NCBI RefSeq assembly: GCF_040782645.1
Contig: NZ_CP160403.1
Span: 7,723,001-7,787,000 of the forward strand
Length of the DNA: 64,000 nucleotides
DNA from: Streptomyces sp. HUAS ZL42
GTDB taxonomy: Bacteria > Actinomycetota > Actinomycetes > Streptomycetales > Streptomycetaceae
Direction: 5' to 3'
Part shown: positions 18,748 to 27,408 of the stretch, in pieces
How positions within the stretch are numbered: position 1 is the stretch's first letter
Layout: the number at the start of each line of letters is the position of its first letter
Made by a program: the position numbers and the translations under genes
The notes under the pieces: model-generated
What the model was told of the DNA's origin: nothing
Seen by the model: only the letters and a program-made list of their open reading frames with translations
Database searches by the model: none

Positions 18748-20406
18748 TCACGGGGAGGGCGAAGGTGAAGCGGAGGCCCCGTCCGACGGGGTCTCCGTCA
18801 CGCACGTCACCGAGAACGGCACCGCGTTGGACGTCTTGTGCACCGGGTCGCGCACCTCGACGCCGATCTCGTTCTGGTACGTCCCGCTCTCCGCGTACGT
18901 CGTCACGACCACCGTGTCCTGCTTGGACTTCCCGCCCCCGGAGGGGAACGAGAGGGTCTTCCAACCCGGGTTGGAGACCTCGCCGTCCTTGGTCACCCAG
19001 CGGTAGTCGACCTTTGCGGGCAGCCGGCCGACCGTGAACGTCGCCGTGAACGACGGCGCCTGCGCGTCGGGCGGCGGGCAGGCCCCGGTGTACTGCGTGT
19101 TCGCTCCCGTGACGGTGACGTGGACGGTCTGCGCCGGAGCGGCGGTCGTGGCGCTGCTGCTCTGGCTGGGGGAGGCGCTCGGCTCCGGTGTCGTCGCCGT
19201 TGCCTCGCCGCTCGTGGGCGCCGTGACGGGCCCGCTCCGGGTGCCGGTGGGGCTGCCACTGGCGCCCTTGCCGTCGTCCTGGTTCAGCAGCGCGTACGTC
19301 AGACCCGCCACGGCCAGCGCGACGGCGACCACGCCCGCCAGGAGGAACACGGCGGCGCGGCGGTTGCGGTCCGGCTCCGTCGTGGTGGTGGTCGCCGCCG
19401 CGGGGGCGGGCTGCGTCGCCCCGGTCGTGGCGGGCCACGGCGGCGTGGGCGGCTCCTGGTGGAACCGCTGGGGATAGGGCTGCGGAGGAGTGGCGATCGT
19501 CGGTGTGTACGGCGCCGCCTGCACGGTGTCGGAACCGGGACCGCCTTCCCCGGAGGGGGTACCCCCAGCGCCGATCACCCGCAGGTCCTGCTCCGCCCGG
19601 TCGGCGGGCAGCCGCTCGGCCGGGTCCTTGCGCAACAGCCCCTCGATCACCGGCGCGAGCGGGCCCGCCCTTCGCGGCGGCGGCAGTTCCTCGTCGACGA
19701 TCGCGCGCAGGGTGCTCAGCGGGGTGTCCTGGCGGAACGGGGAGTTGCCCTCGACCGCGGCGTACAGCAGCACGCCGAGCGACCACAGGTCGGACTCCGG
19801 GCCGGGCGTGCGGCCGAGCGCCCGCTCCGGCGCCAGGAACTCGGGCGAACCGATGACCTCACCGGTCATCGTCAGCGCGGAGCTGCCCTCGACCGTCGCG
19901 ATACCGAAGTCGGTGAGCACGACCCGGCCGTCGTTCGCCATCAGCACGTTCGCCGGTTTCACGTCCCGGTGCAGCACACCGGCCTCGTGCGCGGAGCGCA
20001 GCGCCGCCAGCACCTCCGCGCCGATGTGCGCCGCGCGCTGCGGGGACAGCGGGCCCTCGGCGTCCAGGAGCTCGGCCAGGGAGATGCCCCGGACCAGCTC
20101 CATGACGATCCAGGGGCGGCCGTCCTGTGTGGCCACGTCGTACACCGTCACCACGTTGCGGTTGGCGACCCGGGCCGCGGCCCAGGCCTCCCGCTCGAGA
20201 CGGGCGTACATCCGTTCCACGTCGGCGGCCGCCAGTCCGGCCGGGGCGCGCACCTCCTTGACGGCGACCTCGCGCTGCAGCACCTCGTCGCGGGCCCGCC
20301 ACACCGTGCCCATACCGCCCTCGCCCAACGGGGAGAGGAGACGGTAGCGGCCCGCGATCAGACGTTCACCGCGCGGTTCTTCGGACACGCGCTCCCCCAT
20401 TCGCAT
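18748..20406 (-). CDS. Transmembrane Ser/Thr protein kinase (Hanks type)
   Basis: A 552-residue membrane kinase. The kinase domain spans about 20-280: P-loop LGEGGMGTVW, Lys50 in VAVKEV, HRDVKPANVL with catalytic Asp148, DFG at 166-168 and the SPEFLAPE activation-segment end. A Pro/Thr-rich juxtamembrane linker of about 70 residues, one membrane helix at about 351-374 and a 175-residue extracytoplasmic domain follow. The outer domain is not PASTA: it begins with a Thr/Ser-rich stretch and ends in a beta-rich fold with one Cys pair (GACPPPD...TCVTETP). The start is uncertain: ATG 20406 has GGAGG 11 bases upstream, while GTG 20388 has GGGGGAG very close. Confidence 0.9.
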   Translation of the reverse strand: MRMGERVSEEPRGERLIAGRYRLLSPLGEGGMGTVWRARDEVLQREVAVKEVRAPAGLAAADVERMYARLEREAWAAARVANRNVVTVYDVATQDGRPWIVMELVRGISLAELLDAEGPLSPQRAAHIGAEVLAALRSAHEAGVLHRDVKPANVLMANDGRVVLTDFGIATVEGSSALTMTGEVIGSPEFLAPERALGRTPGPESDLWSLGVLLYAAVEGNSPFRQDTPLSTLRAIVDEELPPPRRAGPLAPVIEGLLRKDPAERLPADRAEQDLRVIGAGGTPSGEGGPGSDTVQAAPYTPTIATPPQPYPQRFHQEPPTPPWPATTGATQPAPAAATTTTTEPDRNRRAAVFLLAGVVAVALAVAGLTYALLNQDDGKGASGSPTGTRSGPVTAPTSGEATATTPEPSASPSQSSSATTAAPAQTVHVTVTGANTQYTGACPPPDAQAPSFTATFTVGRLPAKVDYRWVTKDGEVSNPGWKTLSFPSGGGKSKQDTVVVTTYAESGTYQNEIGVEVRDPVHKTSNAVPFSVTCVTETPSDGASASPSPSP

Positions 20407-20433: not shown

Positions 20434-22173
20434 TCAGCCGAGTACGGATGCCGCCCCCTTGAGCAGCAAACCGGCCCCGAGCGCCACGACGACCAGCGCG
20501 GACCCCAGGGGAGCGGTCCTGCGGACGAAGGCCGCCGGCGGACCGGCGGTCAGGCGGGGGCGCCGGTCCAGCAGCCGGTTCATGCCCGTGCCCAGCTTCA
20601 CGACCGCGACACCGGCCGCGGTGAGAGTGAGGGCGAGGCCGATGCCGTACGCCACCACGAGGAGCAGGCCGAACCAGGCCTTGCCCAGTGCCGCCGCGCC
20701 GACCAGCACCACCACGGCGGAGGGACTGGGGACGAGCCCGCCCGCGAAGCCGAGGAGGATCGTGCCGCGGAGGGTGGGGGCGGTCGCGTGGGTGTGGGTG
20801 AAGCCGCCGTGGGTGTGTGCGAAGGTGTGGGGATCGCGGTCGTGGTCGTGGCTGTGGCTGTGGCTGTGGTCGTGACCGTGCTCGTGGTCGTGGTTGTGCT
20901 CGTGCTTGGCGTCGTGCGTGGGTGCGGGGGCCGCGATGGCGGTTGCCGTGGGTTCGGCGTGTGCGCCGGCCAGGACCAGGTGGCGTTCGGGGACCTCGGT
21001 GTCCTCGTCGTGCGAGTGCTCGCCACCGTGGTCGTGCGGGTGGGGATGCGGGTGCGGGTGGTCGTGATCGTGCCCATGCCCGTGCGAGTGCCCATGCCCA
21101 TGCCCGTGCGAGTGCCCGTGCCCGTGTCCATGCCCGTGTCGCCGGTTGTGCCAGGCCCGTCGTACGAGGCTCGCGCCCGCCGCCATCACCAGGGCGCCGC
21201 TCGCCAGGCCCAGCCAGGCGATCACCGAGGGCGCGGCGGCCGAACCGGCGGTGACCAGGAGGCCGAGCGCGACCACCCCCAGGGTGTGGGTGACCGTCAC
21301 CGAAGCGGCCAGGGGCAGGACGTCCTTGAGGCGGGCCCGGCCGCCCCGGGCGGCTGCCGTCGCGGCCATGAGGGTCTTGCCGTGGCCCGGGGCGAGCGCG
21401 TGCAACGCGCCCAGGCCCACGGCGATCACCAGGGCCAGCGCGGCGAAGCCGAACGTGAGGTCGTGGCGGGAGACCAGGCCGTCGAGGGCGCGCGTCCAGC
21501 GGTCGGCGCCGCGTGGCAGGACGGACGCGGCGGGCGCGTCGCGGTCCTCCTCGGCAAGGGCCGGGCCGCCGGGGCGCACGCGCAGCGAGGCGGTCGCGGT
21601 GTCGGCGGGCGAGGAGAGCAACTCCGCCGGATAAGTGGTGAGTTCGCGGGACGGCGACTTCGTGGGTACGTCCGACGCGGTGAGCGTCATACGGTCGCCG
21701 CGCGCGGTGATCTCCCGCCAGCCCGGGCCGGAGGAGGCGCCCGCGCCGTGGAACCCGAGGGCCACGGTGTCGCCCTGGGGGAGGGGAGCCGTGAAGCGGC
21801 ACTCGACGCGCAGGGTGTTCAGCCCCGCCTGCCCCGGACGCAGGACCGCCTTGCTGGTGACCACCGTGAGCGCGGTCGGACGGCCGTCGACGGTGAGCTT
21901 GCTGCCCCCAGCGGCCGTCTCGCACCGCTGCCGGGCCCACTCGGTGGTGCCGAGCCGTTCGAGGTCCGGTTCGGCCTGGGTGGCCGGGATCTCGGCGAGG
22001 TCCTCGACATGGTCGACGCGCAGCCCGCCGGGGGCGGCGACGAGACCGTCGTAGCGGTTGACGGTGAAGTTGCCCAGGGGATGCGCGCTCGCGCTGGTGG
22101 AAGGGAACAGCGCGAGCGCGCAGGCGGCCGTCAGGACGGCCGCGCCGGAGGCGAACACACGACGGGCTTTCAC
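20434..22173 (-). CDS. NicO/RcnA-type nickel-cobalt exporter-like membrane protein, His-rich
   Basis: A 579-residue protein. The signal peptide covers about 1-30 (ends SASA), followed by a 200-residue extracytoplasmic domain and a polytopic NicO-family domain with the hallmark LHALAPGHGKTLMAATAA. Two extended His/Asp/Glu-rich segments lie between helices, one of alternating HG/HS/HD and one HEHNHDHEHGHDHSHSHSH, suited to binding Ni, Co or Zn. A second membrane half contains GLVPSPSAVVVLVGA. The fused N-terminal outer domain, absent from E. coli RcnA, is typical of actinobacterial members. Its ATG overlaps the TPR gene's stop (ATGA), so the two are cotranslated. Confidence 0.88.
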   Translation of the reverse strand: MKARRVFASGAAVLTAACALALFPSTSASAHPLGNFTVNRYDGLVAAPGGLRVDHVEDLAEIPATQAEPDLERLGTTEWARQRCETAAGGSKLTVDGRPTALTVVTSKAVLRPGQAGLNTLRVECRFTAPLPQGDTVALGFHGAGASSGPGWREITARGDRMTLTASDVPTKSPSRELTTYPAELLSSPADTATASLRVRPGGPALAEEDRDAPAASVLPRGADRWTRALDGLVSRHDLTFGFAALALVIAVGLGALHALAPGHGKTLMAATAAARGGRARLKDVLPLAASVTVTHTLGVVALGLLVTAGSAAAPSVIAWLGLASGALVMAAGASLVRRAWHNRRHGHGHGHGHSHGHGHGHSHGHGHDHDHPHPHPHPHDHGGEHSHDEDTEVPERHLVLAGAHAEPTATAIAAPAPTHDAKHEHNHDHEHGHDHSHSHSHDHDRDPHTFAHTHGGFTHTHATAPTLRGTILLGFAGGLVPSPSAVVVLVGAAALGKAWFGLLLVVAYGIGLALTLTAAGVAVVKLGTGMNRLLDRRPRLTAGPPAAFVRRTAPLGSALVVVALGAGLLLKGAASVLG

Positions 22174-23768
22174 TTGGCCGCCTCCAGGTCCTTCAGCGCC
22201 GTACGGGCCTCACGGGCGCCCAGGGGCGAGAAGCCCGGGTTCAGCTTGAGTGCCGCCGTGAGGTGGGTGCGGGCGTCCTTCGCACGGCCCGTGGCGTGTT
22301 CGATCACGCCGCGGTGGTAGAGGAACGCGGCGTTGCGGTAGCCGGTGGCGGTGGCCTGCCGGGCGTAGGGGAGCGCCTCCGCGTCCTTGCCGTTGACGTG
22401 CAGGGCCCAGGCGAGGGCGTCCGCGGTGTGCACGGTGTGGCGGCGGGCCCATTCGGCGCGGGCCGCGCGCAGCGCCGCCGCCCGGTCCCCGTGGTCGGCG
22501 GCGGCGAGCGCGGTGTCGAGGTCGGCGTTGACGCCGTTGGCGCGGGCGAGTGCCGTCCAGGCGTCCACGAGGGCGTACTGGTCGGCGGCCTTCGCCTTGT
22601 CGCCGTCGGCACCGCGGTCCTCGTACAGCTCACCCAGCGCGACAAGGGGGCCGGGGAGGGGGTAGCGGGCGACCACGTTCTGCAGGCCCTTGATCGCCCC
22701 CGCTCGGTCACCGCTCGCGGCCTGGGCGCGGGCGCGGCCCTCCAGGGCGGGGAGGTAGTTCTCGTCGGCGGCGAGGGCGCGTGCGTAGTCGGTGAGGGCC
22801 GTGTCGTAGTCGCCCTGGTTCCAGGCGAGTTGGCCCAGCTGGCCGGCTACGTACGCGATGTCCCCCGGGGTGGTGGAGGCCCTGAGGGCCTGCTCCAGGA
22901 CCCGGCGGGCGGTGGTCACGTCACCGCGCAGCTCGTGCACGTACGCGTACCGCGTGAAGACCGGGACGCCGGGGCGCCGGTCGTCGGCGATGTCGGCGGC
23001 CTTCGACGCCTCGTCGTAGCGGCCGAGTTCGACGAGGGCGTCGACACGGCTGCACAGGGCGCGTTCGCTGTAGGGGTTCTGCTTCAGGGCCTGGTCGGCG
23101 TACTTCAGGGCGTCCGCGAAGTCGTGGCGGGCGGCGGCGAGAGCGGCGCGTCCGGAGAGCGCGGAGTCGTTGTCCGGCCGCAGCTCCAGCGACCGCTTCA
23201 GCGCCTTCTCGGCCTGCGGGTAGCGGGAGGGATCGCCCTTGGTGCGGGCCTGTTCGACATAGGCGAGGCCGAGGGTGGCCCAGCTGCCGAAGTCCCGTGG
23301 CTGGCCGCGGAGATGGGCCTGCAGCGAGGTGATGCTGGCGTCGAGGTCGCCACTGGCGAGCAGGCCCGGGGAGACGGCACTGGAGGCGGCCGCGACGGTG
23401 GCACCGCCGCCGTCCCGCGCGGCGCCGAAGGCGATGGCGCCGCCGGTGAGGGCGATCGCCAACAGAGCGGCACATCCTGCGAGTTGCAGACTCCGCCAAC
23501 GCCGGCCCGCAGTGGCGACACGCCGGACCGCGGCCACGCGTTGTTCGTCGGTGGCCTGCGCTTCGGTCGGGGCCTCGTCCTGGGCGGGAAGCCGGTCCTC
23601 GGCGGTCAGCCGTTCCTCGGCCGGGACCGTCGTCGCGCCCTGCGCGGGGTTCGAGGAGCCGGGCTCCGGCGTGGCGCCCGCCTTCTCGCCGTGCTCACGC
23701 TGCGGCGACGAAGCCGGGGGCTCGCCGTGCTCACGCTCCCGTGCCTCGTCGTTCGTACGCGGGGACAT
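22170..23768 (-). CDS. TPR repeat protein with one membrane helix
   Basis: A 532-residue protein. Residues 1-105 are a hydrophilic, Glu-rich cytoplasmic segment, one membrane helix follows (LQLAGCAALLAIALTGGAIAFGA), and the remaining 400 residues are a run of tetratricopeptide repeats on the outer side (for example YPQAEKALKRSLELRPDN, DYDTALTDYARALAADENY, AKDARTHLTAALKLNPGF). TPR domains hold protein partners. Its stop overlaps the start of the NicO-type exporter, and a strong hairpin separates it from the DUF4331 gene upstream on the same strand. It may be a scaffold for a cell-envelope metal-handling complex, but this is inferred from position. Confidence 0.85.
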   Translation of the reverse strand: MSPRTNDEAREREHGEPPASSPQREHGEKAGATPEPGSSNPAQGATTVPAEERLTAEDRLPAQDEAPTEAQATDEQRVAAVRRVATAGRRWRSLQLAGCAALLAIALTGGAIAFGAARDGGGATVAAASSAVSPGLLASGDLDASITSLQAHLRGQPRDFGSWATLGLAYVEQARTKGDPSRYPQAEKALKRSLELRPDNDSALSGRAALAAARHDFADALKYADQALKQNPYSERALCSRVDALVELGRYDEASKAADIADDRRPGVPVFTRYAYVHELRGDVTTARRVLEQALRASTTPGDIAYVAGQLGQLAWNQGDYDTALTDYARALAADENYLPALEGRARAQAASGDRAGAIKGLQNVVARYPLPGPLVALGELYEDRGADGDKAKAADQYALVDAWTALARANGVNADLDTALAAADHGDRAAALRAARAEWARRHTVHTADALAWALHVNGKDAEALPYARQATATGYRNAAFLYHRGVIEHATGRAKDARTHLTAALKLNPGFSPLGAREARTALKDLEAAK

Positions 23769-23833: not shown

Positions 23834-23877
23834 GGCGCGGCCCGCACCGTGGGGGATGAGTACGTGCGGGCCGCGCC
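23834..23877. terminator. Hairpin terminator downstream of DUF4331
   Basis: Perfect 14-base arms (23834-23847 and 23864-23877) with a 16-base loop, 42 bp beyond the DUF4331 stop and 66 bp before the TPR start. It may only partly terminate, allowing read-through to the TPR-NicO pair. Confidence 0.8.
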
Positions 23878-23918: not shown

Positions 23919-25442
23919 TCAGTACGCCCGGCTCCGCATCCGGCGCCACCAGGCCAGGCCGGCGCCGATCAGCAGGATTCCGCCCGCGCCGGCGCCCGCG
24001 GAGGCGGCGATCAGCGTGGTGTTGCTGCTCCCGGCCGGCTGCAGCGCGTCGCCGAGCTGGCTGCGGACGTCGGCGTCACCGCTGGTGCCCTTGGCGAGCG
24101 GACCGCGCGAGCCCTCGGTGGGCAGTGCGACGTACGGGAAGTACTTCTCGAAGTCCTTGTCGTTCTTGTCGACCGCGTCGCCCAGGTCGTTCTTGGAACC
24201 GACCAGCTCACCCTCGACGACCTGCAGCGAGGCGTCGATCACGTCGTCCGTCAGCCGGCGCCCGTTCGGGAAGCCCGCGTTGTCGCCGTCGAGGACACCG
24301 AGCCGCTTGGGGCTGGCCGTCGGCTTGATCGAGGTGTTGAGGCGCAGCTCCTCCGACGGGCGCACGTACGGGGGCTGGTTGAGGCCCTTCACGCCCTTCA
24401 GGAAGACGTCGACCAGGTCGTTGCGCGGCTCGGCGGGCGCCTTGATCTTGTAGATCGCCTCGATGAGCTTCGGCAGCTCCGGGTTGGTCACGTTCTTCAG
24501 GAACTGGGCGTCGTCCCACGGCGCGGACGCGTTGAACTTGTCCTTGTCCTTCAGCGGGTTGACGACCTCGTTGACCAGCGGGTTGCCGAGGCGCGAGACC
24601 TGCTCGTAGTAGCCCTTGGCGTTCTGGCGCTGCGTGGTCGACCAGATGCCGACGATCGGCTGCTTCGACGACTCCGTGATCATGTGCGTCGGGACCTGGA
24701 GGGCGATCGAGTTGACGTTGTAGCCCTTGAGCGTGTCGTTGCCGACCTCGGAGAGGTTCCCGCCGTAGAGCAGGTCGAAGACCCGCAGGTCCAGGAAGAA
24801 CGGGTCGTCGGCCTGGCCGGCGAACGTCGTCGTACCGTTGTGCAGCTTGTAGATCGCCTGGTCGCGCAGCTTCTTGTAGTCCGGCATGGACGCCTTGCCG
24901 ACGTTCGACGGTGCCACCGCCACGTCGTTCGCGATCTTCGTCTTGGACATGACCTTCTGCTTGCGCAGCTTGATCAGCTCGAGGTCGTACGTCTGCGTCA
25001 CGTTGAGGTCGGGGTCGTCCAGACTCTCGACGGCACCCGTGTTGTACAGGAACGTCTTCTTGTTCTTCACATGCGTCTTGAACGTGTACCGGAACAACAG
25101 GTCGCCCTGGGCGTCACCGTTGCTGTCGATGTGGATGTCGTACTGGGCGTCCTCGGCGAACGGGAAGAAGTTCGGTCCGCCGGCCGGCTCCTCGAACGGG
25201 ATCCAGTTCGCGATGATCGTCGTCGTGTCCGGCTTGTCCGGGCTCACGAAGGCGTACACGTCGGTGTTGTCGTACTGGGGAGTGCCCGAGATCAGCGGCG
25301 CCTCCCGGTGGCTGGAGGCGGATGCCGCCCCCGGTTCCAGCGTGGCCACGCCGGCGGCTGCGAGCCCCCCGGCGGCCAGCGCACCACAGATCAGGGTCGC
25401 GACACTCCTGCGTCCCGCGCCACTCCTGGAGATAGGTGTCAT
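23919..25442 (-). CDS. DUF4331 exported protein with C-terminal membrane anchor
   Basis: A 507-residue protein. The signal peptide ends ASAS, followed immediately by the DUF4331 hallmark SHREAPLISGTPQYDNTDVYAF. Further family blocks are IPFEEPAGGPNFFPFAEDAQYDIHIDSNGDAQ and FFLDLRVFDLLYGGN. A C-terminal helix (TLIAASAGAGAGGILLIGAGLAWW) plus Arg tail anchors it in the membrane. The biochemical role of DUF4331 is unknown. Some members sit with sigma factor/anti-sigma pairs, as here: an ECF sigma gene starts 230 bp away on the other strand, and the two promoters share a motif. The start ATG 25442 gives a proper signal peptide. Confidence 0.9.
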   Translation of the reverse strand: MTPISRSGAGRRSVATLICGALAAGGLAAAGVATLEPGAASASSHREAPLISGTPQYDNTDVYAFVSPDKPDTTTIIANWIPFEEPAGGPNFFPFAEDAQYDIHIDSNGDAQGDLLFRYTFKTHVKNKKTFLYNTGAVESLDDPDLNVTQTYDLELIKLRKQKVMSKTKIANDVAVAPSNVGKASMPDYKKLRDQAIYKLHNGTTTFAGQADDPFFLDLRVFDLLYGGNLSEVGNDTLKGYNVNSIALQVPTHMITESSKQPIVGIWSTTQRQNAKGYYEQVSRLGNPLVNEVVNPLKDKDKFNASAPWDDAQFLKNVTNPELPKLIEAIYKIKAPAEPRNDLVDVFLKGVKGLNQPPYVRPSEELRLNTSIKPTASPKRLGVLDGDNAGFPNGRRLTDDVIDASLQVVEGELVGSKNDLGDAVDKNDKDFEKYFPYVALPTEGSRGPLAKGTSGDADVRSQLGDALQPAGSSNTTLIAASAGAGAGGILLIGAGLAWWRRMRSRAY

Positions 25443-25480
25443 GCCGTCCGTCCTCAGTCCCAACTTGCCTGACGAACGCC

Positions 25481-25507
25481 ATTCGGAGCGGTCGGCAGGG
25501 TGGATTG
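25481..25507 (-). promoter_or_regulatory. SigK-like promoter for DUF4331
   Basis: Read on the minus strand, CAATCC and CCGAAT are separated by exactly 15 bases, starting about 65 bp upstream of the DUF4331 ATG. It matches the divergent sigma-gene promoter in both boxes (one difference each) and spacing. CCATCC/CCGAAT is also the consensus I recall for M. tuberculosis SigK. Confidence 0.6.
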
Positions 25508-25592
25508 GTCGAATCCCAAACGTTCTTACGGAGCGTCTGAAAACTTGTTTCATCGTTGAGGACCCGCATTTTGGGCACGCTGATCCGTAACC

Positions 25593-25619
25593 CCATCCGG
25601 AGGTGCGTTCGTTGCGAAT
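25593..25619 (+). promoter_or_regulatory. SigK-like promoter for the ECF sigma gene
   Basis: CCATCC (25593-25598) and GCGAAT (25614-25619) are separated by 15 bases, 53 bp before the GTG start of the sigma factor. It probably provides autoregulation. Confidence 0.6.
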
Positions 25620-25671
25620 GCCTGGTGTGACGGGACGGGCCGGCGGCTGCGGCCGTAGAGAGGGGAACCGC

Positions 25672-26214
25672 GTGGAGGCGGACGAGCTTCTGATGCTCGT
25701 GGCAGGGGGCGATCAGAAGGCATTCGAGCAACTGTACGGACTGGTCTCCGGGCCGGTCTTCGGACTGGTCAAACGGGTCGTACGGGATCCTGCGCAGTCC
25801 GAGGAGGTGTCGCAGGAGGTACTGCTCGAACTCTGGCGGTCCGCCGCACGGTTCGACCCGGCGCGCGGCAGCGCCCTGTCCTGGATCCTCACCCTCGCCC
25901 ACCGCCGCGCCGTCGACCGGGTGCGCAGCGCCCGTGCGGCCGGCGAGCGCGAACAGCGCGAGGCCCGGCGCGCCCACCACCCCGCCTTCGACCAGGTGTC
26001 CGAGGAGGTGGAGGCGGGTCTGGAACGCGAGTGGGTGCGTCGCTGCCTGGACCGCCTGACGGCCCTGCAACGCCAGTCCGTCACACTCGCCTACTACGAC
26101 GGCTACACGTACCGTGAAGTGGCCGAGCGGCTCTCCCTGCCGCTCGGCACGGTCAAGACCCGCATGCGCGACGGACTCACCCAGCTGCGCAAGTGCCTGG
26201 GAGGTGTCGCATGA
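25672..26214 (+). CDS. ECF RNA polymerase sigma factor, SigK-like
   Basis: A 180-residue two-domain sigma factor. Region 2 is at about 10-78 (DQKAFEQLYGLV, QSEEVSQEVLLELW, ARGSALSWILTLAHRRAVDRVR) and region 4 at about 120-175 (LTALQRQSVTLAYYDGYTYREVAERLSLPLGTVKTRMRDGL). The sequence is of the SigK/ECF19 type, which is controlled by a membrane anti-sigma factor (RskA). GTG at 25672 is chosen for its GAGAGGGG ribosome site. Earlier starts overlap the putative promoter. Its TGA overlaps the anti-sigma ATG. Likely targets are itself and DUF4331. Confidence 0.92.
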   Translation: MEADELLMLVAGGDQKAFEQLYGLVSGPVFGLVKRVVRDPAQSEEVSQEVLLELWRSAARFDPARGSALSWILTLAHRRAVDRVRSARAAGEREQREARRAHHPAFDQVSEEVEAGLEREWVRRCLDRLTALQRQSVTLAYYDGYTYREVAERLSLPLGTVKTRMRDGLTQLRKCLGGVA

Positions 26215-27023
26215 GCATCCTCGACCGCTTCCGCCGCGAGGACCTCCACTCCCTCGCCGCCCCCTACGCCCTCGACGCCCTGGAACCCGCCGAGCGGATC
26301 CGCTTCGAGAAACACCTCAAGGCCTGCGACAGTTGCGCCGCCGAGGTGCGCGCCCTGTCGGAGGACGCCGTCCGGCTGGCCTGGTCGACGGCCGCCCCGG
26401 CGCCGGCCGCGATGCGCGACCGGGTGCTGGCCGCCGTACGGGCCACTCCGCAGGAGTCCGCACCGGTGCGCGAGCACACGCCCCAGTTGCCGCCGCACGT
26501 GTGGGGCACGCAGCCGCCGCCGGCGCGCACCCGTGCGCCCCACGCGCGCCGCCCCCTGTTCGTGCCGTTCGCCACCGCCACGGCCGCCGCGGCCCTCGTC
26601 GTCGCCTCGCTCTTCGCCGTCCAGGCCAACCGCGCCCAGGACCAACTGGACGCGGAGCGTGCGCAGTCACGTGAGATCGCCCACGTTCTCGCAGCTCCGG
26701 ACGCCCGGGCGAGCTTCGGGAAGGACACCCGGGGCCGCACTATCGGAGTGATCGCCTCCGCATCGGAGGGGGAGGCGGTCGTCACGTTGAGCGGATACGG
26801 CGACCTGCCCAGCGGACGGGTGCATCAGCTCTGGCTCATGCTCCCCGATGTGCAACCACGCTCCCTGGGGCTCTTCGACGGCGACACGCCCTTGGTCGCG
26901 ACCGGTCTCGACAAGACCGCGACGTCACTCGCCGTGACCGTCGAACCCGACGGCGGCTCACCGCAGCCCACTACCCAGCCAGTTGTTCAACTCGCCCTGA
27001 AATCGGTTGGATTCGGAGAGTAA
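26211..27023 (+). CDS. RskA-like membrane anti-sigma factor
   Basis: A 270-residue protein. The cytoplasmic anti-sigma domain contains the zinc-type signature His35-x3-Cys39-x2-Cys42 (EKHLKACDSCAAEV) after the HSLAAPYALDALEPAER leader typical of RskA. One membrane helix spans about 116-138, and an outer RskA C-terminal domain (VVTLSGYGDLPSGRVHQLWLMLPD) follows. RskA-type regulators release the sigma factor after stepwise proteolysis. It overlaps the sigma gene by four bases (ATGA), so the two are produced stoichiometrically. Confidence 0.92.
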   Translation: MSILDRFRREDLHSLAAPYALDALEPAERIRFEKHLKACDSCAAEVRALSEDAVRLAWSTAAPAPAAMRDRVLAAVRATPQESAPVREHTPQLPPHVWGTQPPPARTRAPHARRPLFVPFATATAAAALVVASLFAVQANRAQDQLDAERAQSREIAHVLAAPDARASFGKDTRGRTIGVIASASEGEAVVTLSGYGDLPSGRVHQLWLMLPDVQPRSLGLFDGDTPLVATGLDKTATSLAVTVEPDGGSPQPTTQPVVQLALKSVGFGE

Positions 27024-27138: not shown

Positions 27139-27408
27139 ATGGAACAGATAACGATGCGCAGCAGGGCGAGGGTCCCTGCGATCACCTGCGGGAGCAGCGC
27201 GACCAGTTCGCGCCTCGACCGCCACCTCTCGGTGCTGGCGGGCCCCGCCGTACCGCAGCGGGAAGCGGCCGAGGCGACGACGCTGATGCGTGAGCTCACC
27301 GCACGCGACACCACGCAGCAGCGCAGCGACCGGGGTGCCCGAATGCGCCGCGTCTCGCTCTTCGCACCACTGCGCCGGCTGCGCCGTTCGCTGTTCGGCG
27401 GCAACTGA
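27139..27408 (+). CDS. Small basic protein, 89 residues, unknown
   Basis: A short ORF with GGGGAG before ATG at 27139. It is rich in Arg and Thr and ends with an amphipathic cationic segment, SLFAPLRRLRRSLFGG, that could bind a membrane surface. No signal peptide or known domain is visible. Its coding bias matches its neighbours. It lies between the anti-sigma gene and the convergent CoA-transferase, nine bases from the latter's stop. I recall a similar Streptomyces hypothetical protein but cannot verify that here. Confidence 0.6.
   Translation: MEQITMRSRARVPAITCGSSATSSRLDRHLSVLAGPAVPQREAAEATTLMRELTARDTTQQRSDRGARMRRVSLFAPLRRLRRSLFGGN

Follow-up and report, generated by a model that had tools for sequence, protein, structure and literature searches.

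The locus described here raises the question of what a SigK-type sigma factor controls in Streptomyces. It lies in a 64,000-nucleotide stretch of the genome of Streptomyces sp. HUAS ZL42, a single 9.87-Mb contig (NZ_CP160403.1, positions 7,723,001 to 7,787,000); this stretch, hereafter the window, supplies the numbering used below. On the plus strand of the locus, a gene for an extracytoplasmic function (ECF) sigma factor is followed by one for an anti-sigma factor, and divergent from them, on the minus strand, lie genes for a DUF4331 protein, a tetratricopeptide repeat (TPR) protein, and a NicO-like membrane protein. We propose that the locus encodes an envelope stress switch of the SigK/RskA type, with DUF4331 as its conserved target in place of the fasciclins MPT70/MPT83, and that this switch would feed a copper/nickel capture and transport unit; we put the probability of this reading at roughly 0.6. 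The SigK/RskA switch itself is of a known kind, while DUF4331 with TPR and NicO in the target place appears to be new. The features on which the regulatory part of the argument rests are the following.

25672..26214, plus strand: ECF sigma factor of the SigK family, GTG start (NCBIfam SigK model PRK09646, 291.9 bits)
26211..27023, plus strand: RskA-type membrane anti-sigma factor (RskA_C 1.2e-31, RskA_N 6.9e-8, zf-HC2 1.4e-5)
25593..25619, plus strand: SigK-type promoter of the sigma gene, CCATCC-N15-GCGAAT
25481..25507, minus strand: SigK-type promoter of the DUF4331 gene, CAATCC-N15-CCGAAT, ending 38 nt 5' of the ATG
23919..25442, minus strand: DUF4331 protein, 507 amino acids (PF14224, 1.4e-163)

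The sigma factor, its partner and the twin promoters

A sequence-only reading of the window had named a SigK-RskA pair divergent to a DUF4331 gene, and by profile score and alignment this observation is confirmed. The sigma factor passed the cut-off of the curated SigK model (PRK09646, ECF19; cut-off 226 bits) and was the single sigma factor of the HUAS ZL42 genome to do so, the next-best reaching 130 bits. It aligned with M. tuberculosis SigK (PDB 4nqw) at 6.9e-51, and both SigK cysteines were matched, by Cys125 and Cys175, a pair kept in 80 of 80 aligned sequences. The anti-sigma gene overlaps the sigma gene (26211 versus 26214), as for a co-transcribed RskA-type partner. Its helix motifs, HSLAAPYALDAL and LEPAERIRFEKHL, are comparable by eye to the AS19-1 anti-sigma consensus, printed as HTLAGAYALDAL and LDDERAAFERHL in PMC7406223.

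The gap between the sigma and DUF4331 genes is 229 bp long and contains two SigK-type promoters, one per strand, both with spacers of exactly 15 bases, as had been read from the letters. Their boxes are of the CCATCC / CGAAT type, like those of the M. tuberculosis SigK promoter. The pattern HMATCC-N15-SCGAAT, derived from the two gap sites themselves, had six matches on both strands of the genome, two of which were the gap sites; the reversed pattern, used as a control, had one. The stricter CCATCC-N14-17-CCGAAT matched twice elsewhere in the genome and not at the locus.

Conservation of the sites was surveyed in 80 distinct Streptomyces gaps: that of the window and those of 79 of the 80 nearest DUF4331 loci (one locus, L066, was excluded because the sigma gene is absent there). 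The DUF4331-side site was exact in 67 gaps and one mismatch off in the other 13, nine of which read CAATCC-N16-NCGTAT. The sigma-side site was exact in 51 gaps and one mismatch off in 11. Among 400 shuffled gaps, neither site was found exactly, and the DUF4331 site was found with one mismatch in four. Within the DUF4331 site, the boxes were kept across Streptomyces loci while the bases between them varied. On this comparative evidence the twin boxes are more than chance, and the earlier claim that each of the two divergent genes has a SigK-type promoter is supported. PMC7509140 describes a high degree of SigK site conservation in Actinobacteria.

The presence of the DUF4331 site appears to track the adjacent sigma gene in Streptomyces. 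When the same criterion was applied to both groups, the site was present at 77/80 loci with an adjacent sigma gene and at 5/21 without one (Fisher 1e-11, kinship ignored). Of the 21 surveyed loci without an adjacent sigma gene, 20 were scanned together; the other, L141 (G182:C26), and L066 were scanned with a slightly different pattern. The five sigma-less loci that kept the site were L225 and L226 (DUF4331 67% identical) and three solitary extra DUF4331 copies, L066, L227, and L228, which lack sigma, TPR, and NicO genes and carry CAATCC...CCGAAT upstream. The presence and conservation of the sites make the sigma factor a candidate for recognizing them.

For other Actinomycetota, the pattern was relaxed to NNATCC-N15/16-NCGAA[C/T], a choice made with a list already in view, and sought up to 400 nt upstream of DUF4331. 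It was found at 13 of 27 non-Streptomyces loci versus 0.30 expected from the remainder of those loci. At loci fetched after the pattern had been chosen, it was found at 9 of 26 versus 0.21 expected, two of the nine positives being from one genus with an identical site. Loci whose DUF4331 domain scored less than 100 bits and Streptomyces rows were left out of both counts, as was L181, with 3 nt upstream, from the held-out set.

Two further observations concern SigK-type elements at other places. In the HUAS ZL42 genome, a CAATCC-N15-CCGAAT site at C1:1515395-1515421 (plus strand), about 100 nt 5' of an open reading frame (ORF) resembling a zf-HC2 anti-sigma factor (L089), may mark another target. 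Near the SigK paralogues of other Streptomyces (L189, L192, L199, L200) stand ORFs that, by eye, resemble photolyase, cyclopropane synthase or MerR genes or encode small lipoproteins.

Conservation and loss of the DUF4331-TPR-NicO block

Two genes stand behind DUF4331 on the same strand, and they overlap, as had been noticed, by 4 nt.

22170..23768, minus strand: membrane-anchored TPR protein (several TPR families, best 4e-18)
20434..22173, minus strand: NicO/HupE-like membrane protein with His-rich loops (PRK10019 136.5 bits, below cut-off)

In 121 Streptomyces genomes, DUF4331 was present in 60 and NicO in 64; both were present in 60, NicO alone in four, DUF4331 alone in none, and neither in 57 (Fisher 3.5e-30, kinship ignored). 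By hand tally, 58 of the 62 full-length DUF4331 loci had NicO next to them; in three others the two lay apart, and the last was at a contig end. An orthologue of the sigma factor (at least 73% identity) was present in 43 of the 121 genomes and was divergent to DUF4331 in 41, the remaining two, G506 and G482, having neither DUF4331 nor NicO. These two and G334 kept the sigma gene, the anti-sigma gene, an 89-amino-acid ORF, and an esterase gene but had lost the block of three genes along with the promoter next to the sigma gene; G482 had lost a kinase gene as well. Conservation of the neighbourhood had been named beforehand as a refuting test, and the DUF4331-TPR-NicO grouping held well beyond Streptomyces: of 53 non-Streptomyces loci, 35 had a same-strand TPR gene, 24 had NicO, and 23 had both (contig ends uncorrected). 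Judged from its joint occurrence and loss, DUF4331-TPR-NicO is a real module, beyond mere synteny.

A similar arrangement was found on plasmids of distant bacteria, Pseudoalteromonas adding a second phylum. The sigma, anti-sigma, and DUF4331 genes, together with an Ig/cadherin-like gene, were present in 5/5 Pseudoalteromonas plasmids opened, and an annotated HupE/UreJ gene followed DUF4331 in four of the five loci, the exception being THAF3. In L206, the one Pseudoalteromonas locus tested against Pfam, the anti-sigma factor matched RskA_C and the gene before HupE encoded a TPR protein. The pattern GCATC[C/T]-N16-CGT[A/T], read from alignments of the same five loci in which it was counted, had ten matches in their 117,246 bases, one upstream of each sigma gene and one upstream of each DUF4331 gene, suggesting that these loci have twin promoters of their own. 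DUF4331, one or two further genes, and then HupE were found on plasmids of Lichenicola, Comamonadaceae, and Marinobacter, and DUF4331 followed by a TPR gene in Adhaeribacter. Three Rhodobacterales plasmids (L207, L211, L212) have DUF4331 within a cluster of type II secretion genes that includes an A24 peptidase gene.

The predicted N-termini of DUF4331 and its membrane partner

DUF4331 matched PF14224 over its full length (545.5 bits, over cut-off, profile positions 1-421 of 421), and the family is large, with at least about 8000 scored relatives per protein search. The protein has a signal peptide, a beta-rich domain, and a C-terminal membrane tail, which agrees with the earlier claim that it is exported and membrane-anchored. 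Some of its relatives have SLH domains and others adjoin sortase genes; together with the signal peptide and the membrane tail, this points to a location at the cell surface. A structure model was confident over about residues 51-445, and no fold relative of DUF4331 was found. The two predicted N-termini considered below are encoded as follows, a hyphen marking the predicted cleavage.

25308..25316, minus strand: Ser-Ser-His codons, residues 43-45, predicted mature N-terminus of DUF4331, ATCUN-type motif
22081-22083, minus strand: predicted mature N-terminal His of the NicO-like protein, residue 31, AxA-HPLG[N/K]F

At the predicted mature start, 242/242 DUF4331 relatives had [S/A]SH before RE[A/G] (Ser in 221, Ala in 21), and 236 of the 242 had Ala at position −1 of the predicted cleavage, in keeping with the −3/−1 rule. 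In leaderless relatives, the start residue directly preceded Ser-Ser-His in 120/120 cases (relatives of one query). Four further loci also had a leaderless start at the motif, with an in-frame stop codon shortly upstream in two of them. Removal of Met before Ser would yield the same end in leaderless forms. Ser-Ser-His would then be retained in two independent ways, through cleavage of the signal peptide and, where there is no leader, through loss of Met. Mature DUF4331 is therefore predicted to begin with [Ser/Ala]-Ser-His, a prediction that is new here. In the excerpt of PMC7701195, NH2-X-X-His is given as the amino-terminal Cu(II)- and Ni(II)-binding (ATCUN) motif. The predicted DUF4331 N-terminus is like ATCUN sites in this respect and may bind Cu(II) or Ni(II); it differs from ATCUN sites in general in that a whole exported family is built on the motif and Arg-Glu-Ala-Pro is also fixed.

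The NicO-like partner is predicted to begin with His. Its cleavage motif was found in 31/33 NicO loci, L142 having matched in an unrelated stretch and L167 not at all. Its membrane core and His-rich loops are shared with the NicO / RcnA nickel-cobalt efflux proteins; unlike them, it scores below the family cut-offs and has an extracytoplasmic N-terminal domain. HupE/UreJ_2 proteins (PF13795) of proteobacteria occupy the same place behind DUF4331, and His was first after the likely cleavage site in four of four translated; they are shorter than Streptomyces NicO and lack His-rich loops, the comparison being one of position and N-terminus.

The proposed switch, its rivals and known systems

RskA-type anti-sigma factors keep their sigma factor at the membrane until an envelope signal arrives. 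By this family behaviour, the anti-sigma factor of the locus would retain its partner until such a signal frees it, and a redox input is possible because the Cys pair is conserved in the sigma factor. The freed sigma factor would transcribe its own operon and DUF4331 from the matched promoters, a step that the comparative evidence supports. DUF4331 would then be exported, cut to NH2-Ser-Ser-His-Arg-Glu-Ala-Pro, and surface-anchored, with Cu(II) or Ni(II) bound at its N-terminus; with the TPR scaffold and the NicO/HupE-type protein bearing a mature N-terminal His, it might form an extracytoplasmic unit for capturing and transporting metal. Such a unit is proposed because of the predicted DUF4331, NicO, and HupE N-termini, which, of the 'metal or redox' roles suggested earlier, would favour metal. 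A wider version, in which an ECF sigma/RskA pair turns on DUF4331 and the N-terminal Cu/Ni site of DUF4331 passes metal to a TPR-scaffolded NicO/HupE with N-terminal His, as one undescribed envelope metal system across phyla, seems to us rather unlikely.

Could the twin boxes be inherited non-functional similarity or chance? The pattern was first read from this locus and the Streptomyces gaps are related sequences, both of which speak for such a view; however, held-out loci of other genera were about 40-fold above expectation, the boxes were retained beside variable spacers, and the site was mostly absent where no sigma gene was adjacent, and we consider it highly improbable. A smaller regulon deserves more weight. 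It would consist of the sigma factor, the anti-sigma factor, and DUF4331 only, a hairpin ending the transcript and TPR-NicO having a separate promoter; DUF4331, TPR, and NicO would adjoin by shared function or old synteny without co-regulation. The hairpin, noted earlier behind DUF4331, is a perfect one.

23834..23877, minus strand: stem-loop between the DUF4331 and TPR genes, perfect 14-bp stem, no T tract

It lies 42 nt 3' of DUF4331, and its sequence is unique in the genome. In 67/74 Streptomyces loci, a perfect stem of 11 bp or longer stood directly behind DUF4331, whereas none in 59 shuffles exceeded 10 bp, and the solitary DUF4331 copies retain a SigK-type site. On the other hand, TPR and NicO overlap on the same strand behind DUF4331, loss of the block removes all three genes, and read-through is possible, since a T tract is missing from the hairpin and a terminator scan of its region called no terminator. 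The smaller regulon is a plausible alternative, though not a probable one. The sequence-only reading had tentatively placed the whole DUF4331-TPR-NicO block under the sigma factor; this is borne out for the DUF4331 promoter and not for TPR-NicO, before which the conserved stem-loop intervenes.

Alternatively, DUF4331 could be a structural or adhesive surface protein without a metal, like the supposed role of the mycobacterial SigK fasciclin targets, SHREAP being part of the fold and only by coincidence the first stretch of the mature protein. The fixed letters past the His would suit this account, which we regard as possible but somewhat improbable: leaderless forms begin exactly one residue before SSH in every case, a start that a buried fold element does not need, and DUF4331 is steadily accompanied by a NicO/HupE membrane protein whose loops are rich in His.

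Several observations weigh against a SigK-driven metal unit. The invariance of S-H-R-E-A-P exceeds what an ATCUN site needs, and the conserved hairpin may end the DUF4331 transcript and separate TPR-NicO from the regulon. The NicO-like protein scored 21.6 bits on Pfam NicO (PF03824), under the cut-off of 27.7, and fell short of the cut-off of 195 for the RcnA-type PRK10019; DsbD_2 gave 26.0 bits, over its cut-off of 24.9. The protein is related to NicO and RcnA and is not a member by score, and of the 'His-rich metal exporter' announced earlier the His-rich loops hold and the exporter label is weakened. The sigma-side site was at least two mismatches off in 18/80 Streptomyces gaps; the DUF4331 site was missing from 17/22 Streptomyces loci without an adjacent sigma gene (L141 included), the looser site from 31/53 non-Streptomyces Actinomycetota loci, and a SigK-type site was present in only 1/11 plasmid loci other than those of Pseudoalteromonas. 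Because the site is absent from so many sigma-less, other actinomycetotal, and plasmid loci, the link between sigma and DUF4331 is not universal. Only 6/53 non-Streptomyces loci had a sigma gene at most 1.5 kb from DUF4331, and the 144 bits that the Pseudoalteromonas sigma factor scored with the SigK model fell short of the cut-off and were on a par with other families. The gene in the TPR place gave no Pfam match in Lichenicola and sub-cut-off matches only in the Comamonadaceae locus, and no TPR or HupE gene was found beside DUF4331 in the three Rhodobacterales loci.

The locus has the sigma and anti-sigma families and the Cys pair in common with SigK-RskA of M. tuberculosis. A conserved cassette mpt83-sigK-rskA and SigK cysteines 133 and 183 are described in the excerpt of PMC7509140. 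The promoter type and a divergent or adjacent gene for an exported protein are likewise shared with that cassette; in contrast, the target here is DUF4331 with TPR and NicO and not the fasciclin MPT83, and a profile search of the whole HUAS ZL42 genome for fasciclin (PF02469) found none. In a search of 5.39 million papers, none named DUF4331, alone or with sigma factor, and none named any two of DUF4331, SHREAP, HupE, and NicO family. In the excerpt of a RIViT-seq study of Streptomyces coelicolor (PMC9205884), the sigma/anti-sigma pair was not named, the S. coelicolor orthologue not having been identified. The present analysis offers for DUF4331 a candidate regulator, a set of fixed partners, and a hypothesis, down to single residues, on its mature N-terminus. 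Related gene sets recur in distant bacteria, so that a possible role of the family in metal handling can be tested directly. The results also suggest that the extracytoplasmic targets of SigK-RskA switches differ between lineages; this is relevant to the signal that the switches sense, an open question according to the excerpt of PMC7509140.

Two minor features of the window remain. ARAGORN called a tRNA-Ser(CGA) at 20163-20235 (plus strand), opposite a Ser/Thr kinase gene, which is probably a false call. The small ORF kept next to the anti-sigma gene is placed as follows.

27139..27408, plus strand: 89-amino-acid ORF 3' of the anti-sigma gene, conserved position, association only

Pfam and NCBIfam searches gave no family match for it. 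Its identity was 74-92% in the Streptomyces loci that have it (77 aligned; lowest in L239), and it remains beside the sigma gene even in genomes without the DUF4331 block.

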